Origin: Oscillospiraceae bacterium | Lineage (GTDB): Bacteria; Bacillota; Clostridia; Oscillospirales; Acutalibacteraceae | DNA: 64,000 nucleotides | Direction: 5' to 3' | NCBI GenBank assembly: GCA_015066445.1 | Contig: SVOK01000003.1 | Location: 1-64,000, forward strand | Shown here: in pieces, positions 5,931-16,167 of the stretch | Layout: each line of letters begins with the position of its first letter | How positions within the stretch are numbered: position 1 is the first letter of the stretch | Translations under genes and position numbers: made by a program | The notes under the pieces: model-generated | Told to the model about the DNA's origin: nothing | Database searches by the model: none | Seen by the model: the letters and a program-made list of their open reading frames with translations, nothing else

Positions 5931-6701
5931 ATGAGAATTGTTATTAAAATAGGAACTTCAACCTTAGCTCACAGCACAGGCAGACTTAATATCCGCCGTG
6001 TGGAGGAGCTTTGCAAGGTTATGAGCGACCTTAAAAATGCAGGAAATGAAATTATATTGGTGTCTTCAGGCGCTATTGGTATGGGTGTGGGCAAGCTTTC
6101 ACTAAGTAGCAGACCTACTGATATTCCAACTAAGCAGGCGGCTGCGGCTGTGGGACAATGCGAGCTTATGTATATATACGATAAGCTTTTTTCTGAGTAT
6201 AACCACACAGTGGCGCAAATTCTCATAACCGGTGAGGATATTGAGCACATCGACCGCAGGGCTAATTTTGAAAACACAATGCGCCGTCTTTTAGAGCTTG
6301 GCGTACTTCCTATTGTTAATGAAAACGATTCTATTGCAACAGATGAAATTGTAATAGGCGATAATGATACCTTGGGCGCTATTGTTGCCACTACCTTAGG
6401 TGCAGATTTGTTGATAATTCTTTCTGATATTGACGGTCTTTTCACAGCCGACCCTCATAAGGATAAGGATGCTGTTTTGTTACATACAGTAAGCAAAATC
6501 ACTCCTGAAATTGAAGCTATGATAGGCGGAGCCGGAAGCAGTCTCGGTACAGGCGGTATGCTCACTAAAATAAAGGCGGCTAAAATGACCGTTGCCGCAG
6601 GCACAGATATGGTAATTGCAAACGGCAAGGACCCCGATATACTTTATGATATTGTAGACGGTAAGGACGTAGGCACACGATTTACTTCACGAAAGGTTTA
6701 A
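5931..6701 (+). CDS. proB: Glutamate 5-kinase
   Basis: VIKIGTSTL, VSSGAIGMGVGKL, NENDSIATDEI, GDNDTLGAIVA, LSDIDGLFTADP, GTGGMLTKIKAA; followed by proA. Confidence 0.96.
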   Translation: MRIVIKIGTSTLAHSTGRLNIRRVEELCKVMSDLKNAGNEIILVSSGAIGMGVGKLSLSSRPTDIPTKQAAAAVGQCELMYIYDKLFSEYNHTVAQILITGEDIEHIDRRANFENTMRRLLELGVLPIVNENDSIATDEIVIGDNDTLGAIVATTLGADLLIILSDIDGLFTADPHKDKDAVLLHTVSKITPEIEAMIGGAGSSLGTGGMLTKIKAAKMTVAAGTDMVIANGKDPDILYDIVDGKDVGTRFTSRKV

Positions 6702-6705
6702 AATA

Positions 6706-7953
6706 ATGATAACAACTAATGAGATTCTTTTAAGGGCTAAGGCGGTATCGCAGAATGCTCCGCTTAGCTGTGAAGTTAAAAACAAAGCTTTAAAAGCAAT
6801 GGCTGATGCACTTTTGCGTAACAGCGATGAGATTTTAAAAGCAAATGCTTTGGATATCAGTAAAGCCAAGGAAACGGTTTCTCAGGTGATGCTTGACCGC
6901 TTAAGATTAACAACCGACCGCATTGAGGGTATGGCAAAAGGGATATTAGAGGTTGCAGATTTACCTGACCCTGTTGGCAGAGTTGTTCAAAGCTCTGTGC
7001 ACAAAAACGGACTTTTAATAGAAAAAACCTCTGTGCCTTTCGGTGTTGTGGCTATTATTTACGAAAGTCGCCCCAATGTCACCTCTGATGCGGCGGCATT
7101 AAGCTTTAAAAGTGGAAATGTCTGCGTGCTTCGAGGCGGTAAGGAGGCTTATTCTAGCGCTTATGCCATAGTGAAAGCTTTAAAAGAGGGTCTCAGAGAA
7201 TGCGGAATTGACGAGAATTATATAAATCTTGTTGAGGATACTACAAGACAGAGCGCTAATGAGCTTATGACAGCGGTGGGTTTGGTTGATTTGCTGATAC
7301 CCCGAGGCGGCAAGGGTCTTATAAAGGCTTGCACAGATAACGCCAAGGTGCCCTGCATAGAAACAGGAACGGGAATTTGCCATATTTATGTTGATAAAGA
7401 GGCTGACCTAGAAAAAGCGCTTAAGATTATAGATAATGCCAAAACAAGCCGCCCTTCTGTTTGCAATGCGGCAGAGGTTTGCCTTGTTCATAAAAGCATA
7501 GCGCCTTTGTTTCTGCCAAAGCTTTATGATAGCTTTTATTCCTCTGATAGAGAAAATAAGGTTGAGCTTATGGGTGACAGCGAGGTTTTAAAGTATATAA
7601 ATGTTACCCCTGCAGGCGAAAACGATTTTGATACAGAATTCCTTGATTATAAAATGGCGGTAAAAATTGTAAACAGTGCCGAGGAAGCGGTAGCGCATAT
7701 AGCTGAGCACTCAACCCATCACAGTGAAAGCATTATAACCGAAGACGGCAGCACCGCCGATTATTTTACAGCAAGAGTTGATTCTGCCGCAGTTTACGTT
7801 AATGCCTCCACCCGTTTTACTGATGGCGGCGAGTTTGGACTTGGCTGTGAAATGGGAATTTCAACCCAAAAGCTTCACGCGCGAGGACCTATGGGTCTTA
7901 ACGAGTTAAACACATATAAATATATTATTAAAGGTAACGGTCAGATAAGATAG
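6706..7953 (+). CDS. proA: Glutamate-5-semialdehyde dehydrogenase
   Basis: PFGVVAIIYESRPNVTSDAAAL, IPRGGKGLI, RPSVCNAAE, FTDGGEFGLGCEMGISTQKLHARGPMGL. Confidence 0.97.
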   Translation: MITTNEILLRAKAVSQNAPLSCEVKNKALKAMADALLRNSDEILKANALDISKAKETVSQVMLDRLRLTTDRIEGMAKGILEVADLPDPVGRVVQSSVHKNGLLIEKTSVPFGVVAIIYESRPNVTSDAAALSFKSGNVCVLRGGKEAYSSAYAIVKALKEGLRECGIDENYINLVEDTTRQSANELMTAVGLVDLLIPRGGKGLIKACTDNAKVPCIETGTGICHIYVDKEADLEKALKIIDNAKTSRPSVCNAAEVCLVHKSIAPLFLPKLYDSFYSSDRENKVELMGDSEVLKYINVTPAGENDFDTEFLDYKMAVKIVNSAEEAVAHIAEHSTHHSESIITEDGSTADYFTARVDSAAVYVNASTRFTDGGEFGLGCEMGISTQKLHARGPMGLNELNTYKYIIKGNGQIR

Positions 7954-7985
7954 GTCGACTCTTGTTACCTTATAGGAGAAATGGT

Positions 7986-8795
7986 ATGTCAACTGTAAAA
8001 TTTGGTTTTATCGGAGCAGGCAATATGGGCGGTGCTTTGGCACGTGCAGTTTGTAAATCAGTAAATCCTAAAGAGGTTTTACTGTCGGATATGTCTGCAG
8101 TAAAGGCACAGTTATTAGCAAATGAACTCGGCTGTTCTTATGGTGATAATGTGGCAGTAGCCTCATCGGCAAGATTTATATTTTTAGGTGTTAAGCCTCA
8201 GGTTATGGATACTGCCCTGAAAAGCCTTATACCTTTGTTAGAAAAGCGTAACGACAGATTTGTTCTCGTTACTATGGCGGCTGGTATTAAAATAAGTGAA
8301 ATTACTGCAATGGCAGGAAAGAATTATCCTGTTATCAGAATTATGCCTAATACTCCCGTTTCTGTGGGGAAAGGTATGATACTTTATACCGCTTCTGAGG
8401 AAGTGTTTATGGACGAAATCGGTGAATTCTGCGATGCACTGAAGCAGGCGGGCAGGGTGGACCGTATTGAAGAAAAGCTTATCGATGCTGCAAGTGCAGT
8501 TTCGGGCTGCGGTCCTGCTTTTGTGTATATATTCTGTGAAGCCTTGGCAGATGCAGGTGTTGAATGCGGATTACCAAGAGCTAAGGCTCTTGAGTATGCC
8601 GCACAGACCCTTTCCGGTGCAGCAGAGCTGTTGCTCACTTCCGGCAAACACCCCGCTGTTTTAAAAGATGAGGTTTGCAGTCCCGGTGGCACTACAATAG
8701 CCGGAGTTCACGCCCTTGAGGAAAACGGATTCAGAGGGGCTACAATGTCGGCTGTGAAGTCTGCGTTTGATAAAACAAAAGCGTTGGGCAAATAA
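7986..8795 (+). CDS. proC: Pyrroline-5-carboxylate reductase
   Basis: FGFIGAGNMGGALARA, RIMPNTPVSVGKGM, AVSGCGPAFVYIF, VCSPGGTTIAGVHALEENGFRG; start moved to ATG 7986. Confidence 0.96.
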   Translation: MSTVKFGFIGAGNMGGALARAVCKSVNPKEVLLSDMSAVKAQLLANELGCSYGDNVAVASSARFIFLGVKPQVMDTALKSLIPLLEKRNDRFVLVTMAAGIKISEITAMAGKNYPVIRIMPNTPVSVGKGMILYTASEEVFMDEIGEFCDALKQAGRVDRIEEKLIDAASAVSGCGPAFVYIFCEALADAGVECGLPRAKALEYAAQTLSGAAELLLTSGKHPAVLKDEVCSPGGTTIAGVHALEENGFRGATMSAVKSAFDKTKALGK

Positions 8796-8848: not shown

Positions 8849-8884
8849 TTTCGGGTAAAATGCGTTGAAGGAATTATTTCCTAT

Positions 8885-9130
8885 GCTTTAACTTCTTTAG
8901 AGAGTCGGCGGTTGGTGTAAGCCGATGAAGATGTGTAGGTTAAGTCTCATCCCTGAGCAGAACGGCTGAAATTTCAAGTAAGCTGTTACGGCGAGCTCCG
9001 TTATCATGGCTAAAGGCTTGTTTGAGTCTTGATGAGTGACCGTTGTGTAATACGGTAATCAGGGTGGTACCACGGATATTGTTTATTCGTCCCTGAGATT
9101 GCAAGGATGTGCAGTCTCAGGGCTTTTTTT
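8885..9130 (+). promoter_or_regulatory. T-box leader riboswitch (tRNA-sensing), including terminator
   Basis: Stem I-like AGAGAGTCGGCGGTTGGTGTAAGCCGA, conserved T-box AGGGTGGTACCACGG (9061-9075), terminator CCCTGAGA...TCTCAGGG + T7 (9091-9130). Confidence 0.93.
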
Positions 9131-9190: not shown

Positions 9191-10570
9191 ATGAAAAACA
9201 TCAAAATTACTGACATTACTTTATGCCGAAACAAAGCGCTCAGCTTTAAGGAGCGTATTGAAATTGCAAGACTTCTTGACCGACTTAATGTTGATACCAT
9301 AGAGATTCCACAAATTGATAATATTAAGAGTGATACTTTGCTTATCCGTACAATTTCTTCATTTGTTAAGGAGAGTAAATTATCTGTTTGCTGCGGATAT
9401 AATGCTGAGGGTGTTGAGCTTGCAGCAGCCGCTCTTAACAATACTAAAAATCCCGAAATCAGAGTAGAGCTCCCAATGAGCCCCGTAGGTATGGAGTATA
9501 CCTGCCATAAAAAGGCTCCTGCTATGATAGAGCTTATTAAGACATTGGTAACTTCAGCTAAGGAAAAATGCGAAAATGTTCAGTTCTGTGCAGTTGATGC
9601 TACCCGTGCAGAGGAGCAATTTTTGACAGAGGCTATTAATACTGCTATTGAAGCAGGTGCTAATTCTGTAACAGTTTGCGATACCACAGGCGAAATGTTG
9701 CCCGATGAATTTGCAAGGTTTGTTGAAAATATTAAGACTAATGTTAAGGAAACGGAATTTGCAGTTTCTATTGAGGATAAAAACGGTATGGCAACAGCGG
9801 CTTCCATCTTAGCTGTAAAGTCAGGTGCAGACGGCGTTAAAACTGCAGTTTCAGGCGGTGTTGCAAGCCTTGAAACCTTTGCGGGTCTTATCAAAAACTG
9901 CGGAAACACCTGCGGCTTCAGCTGTAATATCAAGTATACAGAAACAGGCAGAATTGTAAAGCAAATTGCAAGAATTACCGATTCTAATACCGCAACTGCC
10001 GCTCCTGCGGTGAGAAGCGAGGCTGAAAATGCTATTCATCTTGACAGTAATGATAGTGTTGAAGCTGTGGCTGTTGCAGTTCAGAGCCTTGGTTATGACC
10101 TTTCCGAAGATGATATTGCAAAGGTTTATGAGGAATTTGTCCACATTGCTTCTAAAAAGCGAGTTGGAGCTAAAGAGCTTGATGCTATTGTTGCGAGCAC
10201 CGCTTTGCAGGTTCCCCCCACATATAAACTTATAAGCTATGTAATAAACAACGGTAATATTATTTCTTCCTCTGCTCAACTGCGTCTTTCTAAGGGTGAC
10301 GAGGAGTTAGAGGGTATTTGCATCGGCGATGGTCCTGTTGATGCAGCTTTCAGGGCTATTGAGCAGATTATTGGAAGACATTATGAGCTTGATGATTTCC
10401 AGATTCAGACCGTTACCGAGGGTAGAGACTCTATGGGTTCTGCTTTGGTACGTCTTCGTGAGGGCGGTAAGCTCTATTCTGGCACAGGTATTTCTACCGA
10501 TATTTTAGGAGCCAGTATCCGTGCTTATATAAATGCACTTAATAAGATTGTTTACGAGGAGGCAAACTGA
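9191..10570 (+). CDS. 2-isopropylmalate synthase/HMGL-like protein with LeuA C-terminal (dimer/regulatory-type) domain; canonical metal and catalytic motifs absent
   Basis: HMGL-like TIM barrel followed by LeuA-dimer-type region (VPPTYKLISYVINNGN...AQLRL...GDGPVDAAFRAI...DALGAS-like IRAYINALNK); DTTLRDGEQ replaced by DITLCRNKA and HCHND replaced by SIEDK. Confidence 0.75.
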   Translation: MKNIKITDITLCRNKALSFKERIEIARLLDRLNVDTIEIPQIDNIKSDTLLIRTISSFVKESKLSVCCGYNAEGVELAAAALNNTKNPEIRVELPMSPVGMEYTCHKKAPAMIELIKTLVTSAKEKCENVQFCAVDATRAEEQFLTEAINTAIEAGANSVTVCDTTGEMLPDEFARFVENIKTNVKETEFAVSIEDKNGMATAASILAVKSGADGVKTAVSGGVASLETFAGLIKNCGNTCGFSCNIKYTETGRIVKQIARITDSNTATAAPAVRSEAENAIHLDSNDSVEAVAVAVQSLGYDLSEDDIAKVYEEFVHIASKKRVGAKELDAIVASTALQVPPTYKLISYVINNGNIISSSAQLRLSKGDEELEGICIGDGPVDAAFRAIEQIIGRHYELDDFQIQTVTEGRDSMGSALVRLREGGKLYSGTGISTDILGASIRAYINALNKIVYEEAN

Positions 10571-10571
10571 T

Positions 10572-13076
10572 ATGAAGCTGTCATTTTCTACTAAGGGTTG
10601 GCATAACAGCTCATTTGAGGATTTTTGCGCCATTGCTAAGGATTTAAAGTTTCAGGGAATAGAACTTCATAACATACATAACCGCCTTTTTACTGATAAG
10701 GACGGAGCTTTTCACGATTATACCGCCGCAGCAACGGTAAGAAAGCTTTATGAATTAAAGCTCAATATTCCCTGCATTGATTCTATATGTGACTGCGGTA
10801 AGACAAGCGAAAAGGAAGATACCATTACAGAAATTCGCACCTGTATCAGTATTGCTAAAAACCTTAAAATCCCCGCTGTAAGAGTGCGTGCAATAGGGGA
10901 CGGTGATACCGATGCTTCCTTTGCTTGTGCAGAAGATATAATCAGAACCTTGTTGCCTGAGGCTGAAAATGCCAATATTTCAATTCTGGTTGAGACTTCG
11001 GGTATTTTCTGTGATACTGCAAAGCTTTTGCAACTTCTTAACACCTTTGCTTGCGATAATCTGGCAGCTTTGTGGGATATGTATTCAACATATTTCATCG
11101 GTCATGAGGAAGCAGAGACCACCATTAAAAACTTAGGCGCTTATGTCCGCCATGTTCATATCAAAGATGCCGCTGAGGAAAACGGCGAGCTTAGCTTCTG
11201 CCTTATGGGCGAGGGTAAGCTTCCTATAGAAGAAATGATGCTGGCGCTTCGTTCTGTTAACTATGACGGTTTTGTATCTTTAGAATGGCACCCCGAATGG
11301 TGTGAAGAGCTTGACGATATGGAGATTATTTTCTCTCAGTTTGTGAGCTTTATGAAGCAGTTTGGAGATACCTCCAAAAATGAATCTGCTCTTTATTACA
11401 ACCGTGCTCATACAGGTAAATATGTCTGGGAAAAGGATTTGCTTATTGATGCTACTTTTTCAGATGTATTAGACCGTATGGTTGAGGAATTTCCTGACCA
11501 GTATGCCTTTAAATACACTACACTTGATTATACAAGAACTTATAGCGAATTCCGTGACGATGTGGATACCTTTGCACGCTCTCTTATAGCTCTTGGTGTA
11601 AAGGCAGGAACACATGTAGCTGTTTGGGCTTCAAATGTGCCTCAGTGGTATATTGCTTTCTGGGCAACTGTTAAAATAGGCGCAGTTTTGGTAACTGTTA
11701 ATACCGCTTATAAAATTCACGAAATAGAATATCTTTTAAGACAGTCGGATACACATACAATTATTATGACCGAGGGCGCTAAGGATATAGCTTACGGTGA
11801 AATTGTGGCAGAGCTTTGTCCTGAGCTTGAAACACTTAAGGCCGGCTCACCCTTACACGCAAAGCGTTTACCCTTCCTTAGAAATTGCATAACAGTTGGC
11901 TTTAAGCAAAAGGGTTGTCTTACTTGGGACGATGCTATTGACCGTGCCGCTCAGGTACCTGTAAGCGAGGTTTACAGAATGGCAGCTCAGGTTGATAAAG
12001 ACGATGTATGTAATATGCAGTATACTTCGGGTACAACGGGCTTCCCCAAGGGCGTTATGCTTACTCACTATAACGTTGTTAACAACGGTAAATATATAGG
12101 CGACCATATGGAGCTTTCAACTGCGGACAGAATGATGATTCAGGTGCCTATGTTCCACTGCTTCGGAATGGTGCTTTCTATGACAGCATCTATGACTCAC
12201 GGTGCTACAATGTATCCTATGCCATACTTCTCACCAAAGCCTTCCTTGGCTTGCGTTCATAATGAGCATATCACCGCCTTTAACGGTGTGCCTACTATGT
12301 TTATTGCTATGATGCAGCACGCTGATTTTGCTAAAACAGACTTTTCTTATATGCGTGTTGGAATTATGGCAGGTGCTAACTGTCCTGCTGACCTTATGAA
12401 AAAGGCAACTGAGGTTATGAATATGAAGGAAATCGTATCTGTTTACGGTCAGACCGAGGCTAGCCCCGGATGTACAATGAGCAGCTACTATGATTCCTTA
12501 GAGGTTCGTACAGAAACAGTAGGCTCTGCTTTTGCAAATGTTGAATGTAAAATTGTTGACCCTGAGACAGGTCTTGACTGTCCTGACGGTGTGAACGGTG
12601 AGTTTGTAGCAAGAGGCTATAATATTATGAAGGGCTATTATAAAATGCCTAAGGCCACAGCAGAGGCTATCGATAAGGACGGCTGGCTTCACACAGGCGA
12701 CCTTGCTTGCAGAGACGCTGACGGTAACTACCGCATTACAGGCAGACTTAAGGATATGATTATCAGAGGTGGAGAAAATATCTACCCAAAGGAAATAGAG
12801 GAATTTATTTATACCTGTCCTAAGGTTCGTGATGTTCAGGTTATCGGTGTTCCCGATGAGCAATACGGTGAGGAAATTATGGCTTGCATTATCCTTAAAA
12901 AGGGTGAGGAAATGACTGCCGACGAAATGAAGCAGTATATTGCGGCTCATATGGCTCGTCATAAGGTGCCACGCTATATTGATTTTGTAAACGAATTCCC
13001 GATGAATGCGGCAGGTAAAATTCTTAAATATAAAATGCGTGAGGATGCCGCAGAAAAGTTAGGACTGAAAAAGTAA
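10572..13076 (+). CDS. Fusion protein: N-terminal sugar-phosphate isomerase/epimerase-type TIM barrel + C-terminal AMP-dependent acyl-CoA synthetase
   Basis: N-term MKLSFSTKGWHNSSFEDFCAIAKDLKFQGIELH...VRHVHIKDA...VSLEWHPEW; C-term YTSGTTGFPKGVMLTH, YGQTEASPG, GWLHTGDLA, GRLKDMIIRGGENIYPKEIEEF; SD GAGGAGG before ATG 10572. Confidence 0.9.
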   Translation: MKLSFSTKGWHNSSFEDFCAIAKDLKFQGIELHNIHNRLFTDKDGAFHDYTAAATVRKLYELKLNIPCIDSICDCGKTSEKEDTITEIRTCISIAKNLKIPAVRVRAIGDGDTDASFACAEDIIRTLLPEAENANISILVETSGIFCDTAKLLQLLNTFACDNLAALWDMYSTYFIGHEEAETTIKNLGAYVRHVHIKDAAEENGELSFCLMGEGKLPIEEMMLALRSVNYDGFVSLEWHPEWCEELDDMEIIFSQFVSFMKQFGDTSKNESALYYNRAHTGKYVWEKDLLIDATFSDVLDRMVEEFPDQYAFKYTTLDYTRTYSEFRDDVDTFARSLIALGVKAGTHVAVWASNVPQWYIAFWATVKIGAVLVTVNTAYKIHEIEYLLRQSDTHTIIMTEGAKDIAYGEIVAELCPELETLKAGSPLHAKRLPFLRNCITVGFKQKGCLTWDDAIDRAAQVPVSEVYRMAAQVDKDDVCNMQYTSGTTGFPKGVMLTHYNVVNNGKYIGDHMELSTADRMMIQVPMFHCFGMVLSMTASMTHGATMYPMPYFSPKPSLACVHNEHITAFNGVPTMFIAMMQHADFAKTDFSYMRVGIMAGANCPADLMKKATEVMNMKEIVSVYGQTEASPGCTMSSYYDSLEVRTETVGSAFANVECKIVDPETGLDCPDGVNGEFVARGYNIMKGYYKMPKATAEAIDKDGWLHTGDLACRDADGNYRITGRLKDMIIRGGENIYPKEIEEFIYTCPKVRDVQVIGVPDEQYGEEIMACIILKKGEEMTADEMKQYIAAHMARHKVPRYIDFVNEFPMNAAGKILKYKMREDAAEKLGLKK

Positions 13077-13883
13077 ATGGTTAACGGTATTTATACAATA
13101 GATGCACATTGCCATATTTATCCCGAAAAAATAGCCGCAAAGGCCGTTGCAGGTACCGATAATTTTTACGGTGAAAATTCTGTTGGTAAAGGTACGGTTG
13201 AAGACCTTATTGAGCGAGGCGATAGGGCAGGGATAGACTGTTTTATTGTTCAGTCGGTGGCAACAACTCCCCGACAGGTGGCAAGTATAAATAATTTTAT
13301 AGCCACCTCGGTTGCGGCTAATCCTGAAAGGCTTGTGGGTCTCGGCACACTTCACCCTGAAAGCGAGGATATTAAGGGCGACATAGAGCAGATAATTGCT
13401 TTAGGTCTTAAAGGAGTAAAGCTTCACCCTGATATACAGGCATTTAAAATAGACGACTACAGATGCCTTAAAATTTATGAGCTTTGCGAAGAAAATGGAT
13501 TGCCGATCCTAATGCACACGGGCGATAACAGATATGATTATTCAAATCCTAACCGACTCTTACCCATTCTTGATATCTATAAAAATCTTACCGTAATAGG
13601 AGCTCATTTGGGTGGTTGGTCAATTTGGGAGGAAGCAGTTTCAAAGTATAAGGATTGTAAGAATTTTTATGTTGACTGTTCTTCAAGCTTTAATTATATT
13701 GACAAAGAAACGGCAAAGCGTATTATAAGAGCGTATGGTGCAGATAAGGTCCTGTTTGGAACGGATTACCCGATGTGGTCGCATAAGAGCGAGCTTGAAT
13801 ATTTTTTCTCGCTCGGACTTGACGAACAGGAAATTATGAGTATACTAAATATAAACGCAAAAAAACTTTTTAATTTGGAGTGA
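13077..13883 (+). CDS. Amidohydrolase family protein (amidohydrolase-2 type)
   Basis: IDAHCHIYPE, GLKGVKLHPDIQ, LPILMHTGDN, VIGAHLGG, KVLFGTDYPMW. Confidence 0.88.
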   Translation: MVNGIYTIDAHCHIYPEKIAAKAVAGTDNFYGENSVGKGTVEDLIERGDRAGIDCFIVQSVATTPRQVASINNFIATSVAANPERLVGLGTLHPESEDIKGDIEQIIALGLKGVKLHPDIQAFKIDDYRCLKIYELCEENGLPILMHTGDNRYDYSNPNRLLPILDIYKNLTVIGAHLGGWSIWEEAVSKYKDCKNFYVDCSSSFNYIDKETAKRIIRAYGADKVLFGTDYPMWSHKSELEYFFSLGLDEQEIMSILNINAKKLFNLE

Positions 13884-13888
13884 CCGAA

Positions 13889-15163
13889 ATGAAAATAGGT
13901 ACTAAATGTGTTCAGGGCGGCTATACACCCGGCAACGGCGATCCGAGACAAATCCCAATAATTCAGAGCACAACCTTTAAATATGCCACAAGTGAGGATA
14001 TGGGCAAGCTTTTTGACCTTGAAGCCAGCGGATATTTTTATTCACGCCTTCAGAATCCCACTTGTGATACTGTAGCAGCTAAAATTTGCGAGCTTGAGGG
14101 CGGTACTGCCGCAATGCTCACCTCGTCAGGTCAGGCAGCTTCGTTCTATTCAATTTTTAATATTGCTTCTTGCGGTGACCATATTGTTTCTTCTTCAACA
14201 ATTTACGGCGGAACATATAACCTTTTCGCTGTTACTATGAAGAGAATGGGTATTGAGTTTACCTTTGTATCACCCGACTGTACAGAGGAAGAGCTTAATG
14301 CTGCATTTAAGGAGAATACAAAGGCGGTATTTGGTGAGACTATTGCAAACCCTGCTCTTAATGTGCTTGATATTGAAAAGTTTGCAAATGCAGCTCACAG
14401 CCACGGTGTTCCCCTTATTATTGATAACACATTTGCTACACCCGTTAATTGCAGACCTTTTGAGTGGGGCGCAGATATTGTAACCCATTCCACCACTAAG
14501 TATATGGACGGTCACGGCTCGGGCGTTGGCGGTTGTATTGTTGATTCTGGTAAGTTTGACTGGACTAAGTATTCCGATAAATTTCCTGGACTCTGCACCC
14601 CTGATGACAGTTATCACGGTGTAACTTATACTGAGCGTTTCGGCCTCGAGGGCGCTTATATTACCAAGGCTACAGCACAGTTAATGCGTGACTTTGGCTC
14701 AATTCAGTCACCACAGAATGCTTTTCTCATTAATTTAGGTTTAGAGAGTCTCCATCTTAGAATGAAGAGACATTGTGAAAACGGTTTGGCTGTTGCCAAG
14801 GCTTTAGAGGCTGACAGCAGAGTATCCTGGGTAAATTACCCTGGTCTTGAGTCAAGTAGAGATTATGCTTTGGCTCAGAAGTATCTGCCAAACGGTAGCT
14901 GCGGTGTTGTAAGCTTTGGTGTTAAGGGTGGCAGAGCTGCTGCTGAGAAGTTTATGAAAAATCTCAAAATCGGAGCAATTGAAACCCATGTTGCTGATGC
15001 CCGTTCTTGCTGCTTGCACCCTGCAAGTGCAACTCATAGACAGATGAATGAGGATGAGCTTATTGCGGCAGGTATTTCAGGTGACCTTATCCGTTTCTCT
15101 TGCGGAATTGAGGATGCTGAGGACCTTATTGCTGATATTAAGCAAGCACTTGATAATATTTAA
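13889..15163 (+). CDS. O-acetylhomoserine aminocarboxypropyltransferase/sulfhydrylase, PLP-dependent Cys/Met metabolism enzyme
   Basis: [63 protein letters not shown]. Confidence 0.93.
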
Positions 15164-15172
15164 TTTCAAAAC

Positions 15173-15204
15173 AAAAACCTTCCTCTTGAAAAGGGAAGGT
15201 TTTT
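15173..15204 (+). terminator. Rho-independent terminator
   Basis: AAAAACCTTCC...GGAAGGTTTTT hairpin between the sulfhydrylase gene and metA. Confidence 0.75.
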
Positions 15205-15246
15205 ATGTTATTCTATAATAAAATTATATTAATCGGGGTACAGTTT

Positions 15247-16167
15247 ATGCCTATTAAAATTCCAAATGATTTACCCGCAGTAAAAACGCTTAACGACGAA
15301 AATATATTTGTTATGACCGAAACAAGGGCAATAACACAGGATATTCGTCCGCTTAAAATATTGCTTTTAAATTTAATGCCTAAAAAAATTGAGACCGAAA
15401 CTCAGCTTTCCCGCTTACTAGGTAACTCACCGTTGCAGGTGGATTTAGAGCTTATTCATACTAAAAGTCATAAGTCTAAAAACACTTCTGCAGAGCATCT
15501 TTTAGCCTTTTATAAAACCTTTGACGATGTTAAAGACCGTACCTTTGACGGTATGATTATCACAGGTGCCCCTGTTGAACAGATGGAATTTGAAGAGGTT
15601 GAGTATTGGGAAGAGCTTTGCGAAATTATGGAATGGACCAAAACTCACGTGCACAGCACTTTCCATATTTGTTGGGGCGCTCAGGCAGGGCTTTATTACC
15701 ATTTCGGTATAAATAAAAAACCGTTAGATAAAAAGATGTTCGGAGTATTCCCGCATAAGGTGGATTATAAAAAATCCATTCTTTTCAGGGGGTTCGACGA
15801 TGTATTTATGGTGCCTCATTCAAGACACACCACAGTTGATGTTGACGATGTTAAAAAGATTAAGAATTTAAAAGTTCTTTCAACCTCTAAGGAAGCAGGT
15901 CTTTACGCTGTATCAACAAAGAACGGAAAGCAGATTTTTATTACTGGTCATTCTGAATATGATGCAGATACTCTTATGAATGAATATTTAAGAGATGTTT
16001 CACAGGGGCTTCCTATCGAAATGCCTAAAAATTATTTCAAGGATAATGACCCAAAAAAAGGCCCCGTTGTTTCTTGGCGTTCACACGCAAATCTGCTTTA
16101 TTCAAATTGGCTTAACTATTTTGTTTACCAGACAACGCCTTACGATATTGAAAAAATCAAAAAATAA
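15247..16167 (+). CDS. metA: Homoserine O-acetyl/succinyltransferase (MetA family)
   Basis: [97 protein letters not shown]. Confidence 0.96.

Follow-up and report, generated by a model that had tools for sequence, protein, structure and literature searches.

A catalytically degenerate LeuA relative under leucine T-box control as a candidate leucine sensor of a proposed isovalerate-to-leucine route in gut Clostridia

LeuA, the isopropylmalate synthase (IPMS), is the first leucine-making enzyme and the committed enzyme of the LeuABCD pathway, and in the M. tuberculosis enzyme R80/D81, H285 and H287 are presumably active-site residues. The replacement R80A alone abolishes the activity of M. tuberculosis IPMS (PMC10464499). 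In the rumen, labelling work since the 1960s has established that isovalerate is carboxylated to leucine (references in PMC7356843). The characterised ligase MbcS activates isobutyrate and 2-methylbutyrate, the precursors of valine and isoleucine, and acts poorly on isovalerate (PMC10026030). For T-box leaders, which act by uncharged-tRNA antitermination, the specifiers agreed with the amino acid of known regulated genes (PMC2494555). The literature searched yielded no description of the 459-aa LeuA relative presented here (pseudo-LeuA), no leucine-sensing protein of this type or dedicated ligase fusion for the isovalerate route, and no paper giving a gene set for the isovalerate-to-leucine route with its own control.

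The pseudo-LeuA is a widespread gut-bacterial relative of LeuA, found here in the window, which is the whole 64,000-nucleotide stretch of DNA analysed (Table 1). Its open reading frame, placed at 9191-10570 (+, 459 aa) by an earlier note made from the sequence alone, is real. The protein matches HMGL-like at residues 13-238 (E 7.6e-34) and LeuA_dimer (PF08502) at residues 326-453 (E 9.9e-31, 106.8 bits against a gathering score of 24.9) in Pfam, each well above its cut-off, and is an IPMS (LeuA) fold followed by a C-terminal LeuA_dimer domain; the latter, described in the earlier note as well preserved, is indeed the most conserved part of the family. The protein scores far under all the NCBIfam cut-offs for IPMS, CimA and homocitrate synthase, the best being 272 against 532 bits, with 240 against 598.7 bits for leuA_bact (TIGR00973). 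In the AF2 model (mean pLDDT 87) the barrel is retained and superposes on the IPMS barrel 3ewb at 1.7 Å over 270 columns, with a low-confidence linker at residues 267-279; the domain arrangement is not readable from the model because its pTM is only 0.59.

Table 1. Coordinates of the features of the pseudo-LeuA locus in the window.
Feature	Position	Strand	Basis
T-box leader (uncharged-tRNA antitermination)	8856..9097	+	RF00230; precedes almost every relative with sufficient upstream DNA
Specifier codon CUC (Leu)	8946..8948	+	Rfam alignment position
T-box motif GGTGGTACC (tRNA acceptor-end contact)	9063..9071	+	Sequence and Rfam alignment
LeuA-derived pseudoenzyme, 459 aa	9191..10570	+	Pfam HMGL-like and LeuA_dimer; catalytic residues lost across 81 relatives; AF2
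LCRN, residues 11-14, in place of LRDG (catalytic Arg, metal Asp)	9221..9232	+	Alignment with 30 intact LeuA
SIEDK, residues 193-197, in place of HCHND (two metal His)	9767..9781	+	Alignment
SGGVASL, residues 220-226, in place of NGIGERAGN (metal Asn), with deletion	9848..9868	+	Alignment
Junction of the deletion removing most of catalytic subdomain II	9989..10018	+	Alignment; AF2 linker
LeuA_dimer (leucine allosteric) domain, residues 326-453	10166..10549	+	Pfam; best-conserved part of the family
AP_endonuc_2 / xylose-isomerase-like TIM barrel, N-terminal part of the fusion	10572..11411	+	Pfam; AF2 pLDDT 89; PDB fold matches
Intact AMP-forming acyl-CoA ligase, C-terminal part of the fusion; proposed isovaleryl-CoA ligase	11412..13076	+	Pfam AMP-binding, E 2.8e-92
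Amidohydro_2 / TatD-like hydrolase	13077..13883	+	Pfam; in about 51 loci a homologue is clustered with the cassette
O-acetylhomoserine sulfhydrylase MetY	13880..15163	+	NCBIfam TIGR01326 over cut-off; here only in close relatives
Homoserine O-acetyltransferase MetA	15205..16167	+	NCBIfam NF047918 over cut-off; here only in close relatives

The catalytic positions were read from an alignment of 81 family members from Clostridia (the window protein and 80 from genome contigs) with 30 intact LeuA of the same order. In the 459-aa protein, the change of LRDG to LCRN replaces the catalytic Arg by Cys and the metal Asp by Arg; in the family, the catalytic Arg is substituted in 74 of the 81 relatives, the metal Asp and the first metal His in 81/81, and the second metal His in 79/81. 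The GERAGN loop has a deletion of 4-6 residues in the 459-aa protein and is deleted or replaced family-wide, together with replacement of the metal Asn. Also, the SGIH catalytic histidine is absent in all relatives, and about 26-30 canonical residues of subdomain II, a loss on which the earlier note had not remarked, are deleted in nearly all of them. The altered motifs were quoted there as they stand in the protein (LCRN, SIEDK and SGGVASL for LRDG, HCHND and the GERAGN-type loop). The possibility, also raised there, that the metal ligands are preserved at shifted positions finds no match in the alignment, in which no other conserved H, H or N lies close by, and with 30 intact LeuA and 81 relatives a mere shift by misalignment is ruled out. 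With Arg, metal ligands and subdomain II gone in essentially all of the 81 relatives, standard aldol chemistry appears as improbable as had been supposed; the 459-aa protein is very probably not an IPMS, and its status as a pseudoenzyme seems near certain.

In the tree, the family forms one clade (support 100/99) beside true LeuA, on a long stem, and its 81 open frames encode 427-474 aa, the shortest ending at a contig end. Three intermediate matches considered as missing links (G051, G183 and G169) exceed the LeuA cut-off and proved to be intact LeuA; the two whose motifs were read (G051 and G169) have them of the DTTLRDGEQ or DTTMRDGEQ type. At the loci of these two (L118 and L120), a CimA-like paralog comes after the intact LeuA, and neither genome has a LeuB over cut-off, which leaves a partial pathway.

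Conservation in the family is inverted relative to LeuA, with a relaxed barrel (mean pairwise identity of 0.47, against 0.68 in LeuA) and a tightened leucine-binding domain (0.71 against 0.52). The dN/dS in related pairs, which indicates purifying selection, is 0.04-0.16 for the barrel and 0-0.08 for the regulatory domain, in which the canonical GxGP, TxG and GxGxSTD motifs are retained. Furthermore, 32 residues are conserved in the pseudo-LeuA family and absent from LeuA; since some of these are within the barrel, it may act as a binding surface. The family-specific invariant barrel residues include P95, H106, K108, C163 and K217, and D8, S97, D136, R139 and D164 are retained; given invariant residues such as P95, K108 and K217, the barrel is not a mere relic and may bind something. 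Together with the retained fold and the low barrel dN/dS, these residues would also suit an active enzyme repurposed for a new metal-free barrel chemistry and regulated by its leucine domain. This is unlikely, however, as all metal ligands, the catalytic Arg and subdomain II are lost, the barrel is far less conserved than the regulatory domain, and positions 193-197 and 220-226, in the former active site, vary from one family member to another, as would not be expected of a working active site. Between the two readings offered in the earlier note, a repurposed enzyme and a regulatory pseudoenzyme (effector sensor), the latter is the better supported, catalysis being lost family-wide and the leucine domain being the most conserved part.

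Just 5' of the pseudo-LeuA gene, the T-box that had been expected to control it scores 122.7 bits with RF00230 (gathering score of 93 bits, E 1e-26). The genes proB, proA and proC are found at 5931-8795, immediately 5' of this T-box. Of the 91 leaders of pseudo-LeuA, 82 have CUC as the specifier and 3 have CUG, a synonymous change because both are leucine codons, and a leucine codon is present in at least 85; the specifiers of two loci (L111 and L043) are CTC by eye, where the automatic parse had ATC and CAT. An isoleucine specifier (AUC overlapping CUC) was discarded, as the specifier reads CUC in the Rfam register and the next base varies across the family. Methionine control, considered for the metY and metA genes downstream, was likewise discarded, both genes being in that position only in close relatives. 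Of the three candidate effectors listed previously (Leu, Ile or Met), leucine is the probable one, judging by both the specifier codon and the retained domain.

The pseudo-LeuA gene heads a tRNA-regulated operon, as the earlier note had it, with the leucine T-box on its 5' side and the TIM-ligase fusion starting one base after its stop codon. The fusion adjoins pseudo-LeuA almost always (in every locus with enough sequence), and its adenylation motifs are invariant in 68-69 of 69 relatives. In about half of the fusion family, its TIM barrel has lost the metal ligands D169 and E238, which makes it the second degenerate barrel of the same operon in those members; the metal site is intact in the window. 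The Amidohydro_2/TatD-like gene is sometimes found upstream of the cassette, and not downstream. Only in the window and in some dozen close relatives are MetY and MetA (13880-16167) part of the apparent leucine-T-box operon; in the window, neither an S-box nor a further T-box was detected between the leucine T-box and those genes.

Additionally, a VorA-type subunit of a 2-oxoacid:ferredoxin oxidoreductase (VOR) was found in 25 and the transaminase IlvE in 26 of the examined pseudo-LeuA loci, usually along with an HTH-cupin-ligase and a MinD-like ATPase. A single CUC T-box heads VOR, IlvE, pseudo-LeuA and the ligase in L008 and L009. Four loci (L081, L082, L084 and L124) have, downstream of the cassette, a NifJ-type pyruvate:ferredoxin oxidoreductase instead of VOR. 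The genome of the window has its VOR-IlvE operon on the same contig (C37, locus L131) at about 76.2-82.8 kb, beyond the window; this operon has a T-box of its own, which carries a Val codon. VorB (540 against a cut-off of 399) and IlvE (482 against 307) are encoded there in one operon, and the locus (74-88 kb) comprises an HTH-cupin-MbcS-like ligase fusion, a MinD-like ATPase, VorB, VorA, VorC and IlvE. Across loci, the HTH-ligase/VOR leaders have the Ile codon AUC in 8 cases and the Val codon GUA in 7.

A profile search of the same genome (87% completeness) gave no LeuA or LeuB over cut-off, and no LeuC was found, so that the separate intact leuA for which the earlier note had proposed a search did not appear. 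Other HMGL-like genes of the genome were rejected as intact LeuA, since their sequences and neighbours read as three other types, probably a Re-citrate-synthase-like gene (beside aconitase), an oxaloacetate-decarboxylase alpha chain and a 4-hydroxy-2-oxovalerate-aldolase-like gene. The first of these shares one cluster (L001, contig C30) with a GntR-type regulator, aconitase and an isocitrate-dehydrogenase-type gene; this aconitase-family gene, within the citrate cluster, and this Iso_dh gene are the only ones of their kinds found in the genome. Because no intact LeuA, LeuB or LeuC could be found, the pseudo-LeuA would not be the partner of a normal LeuA.

The same pattern is present in two congeners of the window's organism with 99% completeness, and it extends to a sample of 197 genomes of the order, 40 of them with pseudo-LeuA (25 genera) and 157 without. 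LeuB over cut-off was found in 2 of the 40 genomes with pseudo-LeuA against 118 of the 157 without it (p 9e-17, a value that ignores kinship), LeuA_bact in 0/40 against 56/157, and IlvC in 4/40 against 99/157, whereas VorB was present in 36/40 against 84/157 (p 1e-5, also ignoring shared ancestry). A class sample of 196 genomes, partly independent, a few genomes being common to both, had LeuB in 4/20 genomes with pseudo-LeuA against 119/176 without (p 5e-5, likewise ignoring kinship). Both pseudo-LeuA and LeuB are present together in six genomes (G082, G154, G220, G228, G265 and G298).

The gene linkage and the replacement pattern also bear on the possibility that pseudo-LeuA senses leucine and regulates a ligase for a non-leucine product, such as branched-chain lipid primers. 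More than half of the loci have no adjoining VOR and IlvE, partly since contigs end, and the MbcS of S. aureus channels branched acids into fatty acids (PMC10026030). However, a Leu T-box induces upon leucine starvation, the replacement pattern against LeuA and LeuB is strong, and VOR, IlvE or a NifJ-type oxidoreductase are linked in separate lineages, all of which makes such a product improbable. A structural subunit or scaffold of a ligase complex, without leucine sensing, would explain the near-constant adjacency of the TIM-ligase, its 1-base spacing in the window, and the degenerate TIM domain in half of the fusion family, which fits an interface role; it is nonetheless quite unlikely, as the leucine-effector domain, with its canonical motifs, is the most constrained part of the protein. 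A decaying leuA pseudogene, to which the lost catalytic residues could be ascribed, has practically no chance of being correct and is refuted by the selection analysis, with 81 open frames in one clade and dN/dS far below 1.

Here it is proposed, with a rough probability of 0.55, that the pseudo-LeuA is a dead IPMS descendant serving as the leucine sensor of an isovalerate route that replaces LeuABCD, most likely by shutting down the ligase. Uncharged tRNA-Leu would turn the operon on through the T-box; isovalerate would be converted to isovaleryl-CoA by the TIM-barrel/acyl-CoA-ligase fusion, isovaleryl-CoA would be carboxylated to 2-oxoisocaproate by VOR, and 2-oxoisocaproate would be transaminated to leucine by IlvE. 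When plentiful, leucine would bind the pseudo-LeuA dimer and the ligase would be shut down, most likely by direct contact, for which the extra TIM barrel of the ligase is a plausible docking site. Against the proposal stand the ability of VOR enzymes to work in the oxidative direction as well, the six genomes that have pseudo-LeuA together with LeuB, and the family-specific invariant residues of the barrel.

The catalytic site is lost, the leucine domain is kept under selective constraint, and the gene is in a leucine-controlled operon linked to route-like genes, in genomes largely lacking LeuA and LeuB; for these reasons the pseudo-LeuA is probably the leucine sensor of an isovalerate route. 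There is a good likelihood that it is part of a leucine-responsive isovalerate route, and a role as a leucine-binding sensor is fairly likely; isovalerate as the ligase substrate, the carboxylating direction of VOR and the binding of leucine are inferred. Direct control of the ligase is put forward only tentatively, the contact between the two proteins being the most speculative element of the model. It is accordingly conceivable, short of probable, that the dead committed enzyme of the lost LeuABCD pathway now feedback-controls, by contact, an unrelated ligase heading an isovalerate-to-leucine route. The isovalerate route accounts for every named part, the amidohydrolase and met genes stand outside the model, and the sugar-isomerase-like barrel has no definite part in it.

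For gut Clostridia, the module offers a set of genes open to testing, and the combination of pseudo-LeuA, Leu T-box and TIM-ligase can serve as a genetic marker; its carriers probably need branched-chain fatty acids. Since pseudo-LeuA resembles IPMS by homology, genome-based models could wrongly credit its carriers with the standard leucine pathway. If the proposal is true, a feedback sensor has outlived its own enzyme activity and has been reassigned to another pathway, with end-product inhibition transferred.

Compared with known systems, pseudo-LeuA is like LeuA (leuA_bact, TIGR00973), its sister clade, in fold, domain order and leucine-effector domain, and differs from it by the lack of the catalytic Arg, metal site and subdomain II and by carrier genomes largely without LeuA and LeuB. 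The rumen carboxylation of isovalerate (cited in PMC7356843) is the proposed pathway and is known from labelling; in the loci examined here, acyl-CoA ligase, VOR and IlvE genes are linked under branched-chain amino acid T-boxes. MbcS is an AMP-forming ligase for branched short acids and the nearest match of the HTH-cupin-ligase in the VOR operon, while the TIM-barrel-fused ligase beside pseudo-LeuA belongs to a different AMP-ligase subfamily. As MbcS is poor on isovalerate, a separate isovalerate ligase would be needed, and a division of labour may exist, with the MbcS-like ligase for Val and Ile and the TIM-ligase for Leu. Similarly to pseudo-LeuA, the trypanosome AdoMetDC prozyme (PMC5201418) is a dead paralog for which control of a live enzyme has been proposed; unlike it, pseudo-LeuA has kept its effector-binding domain, and its proposed target is an unrelated ligase and not its own live paralog.
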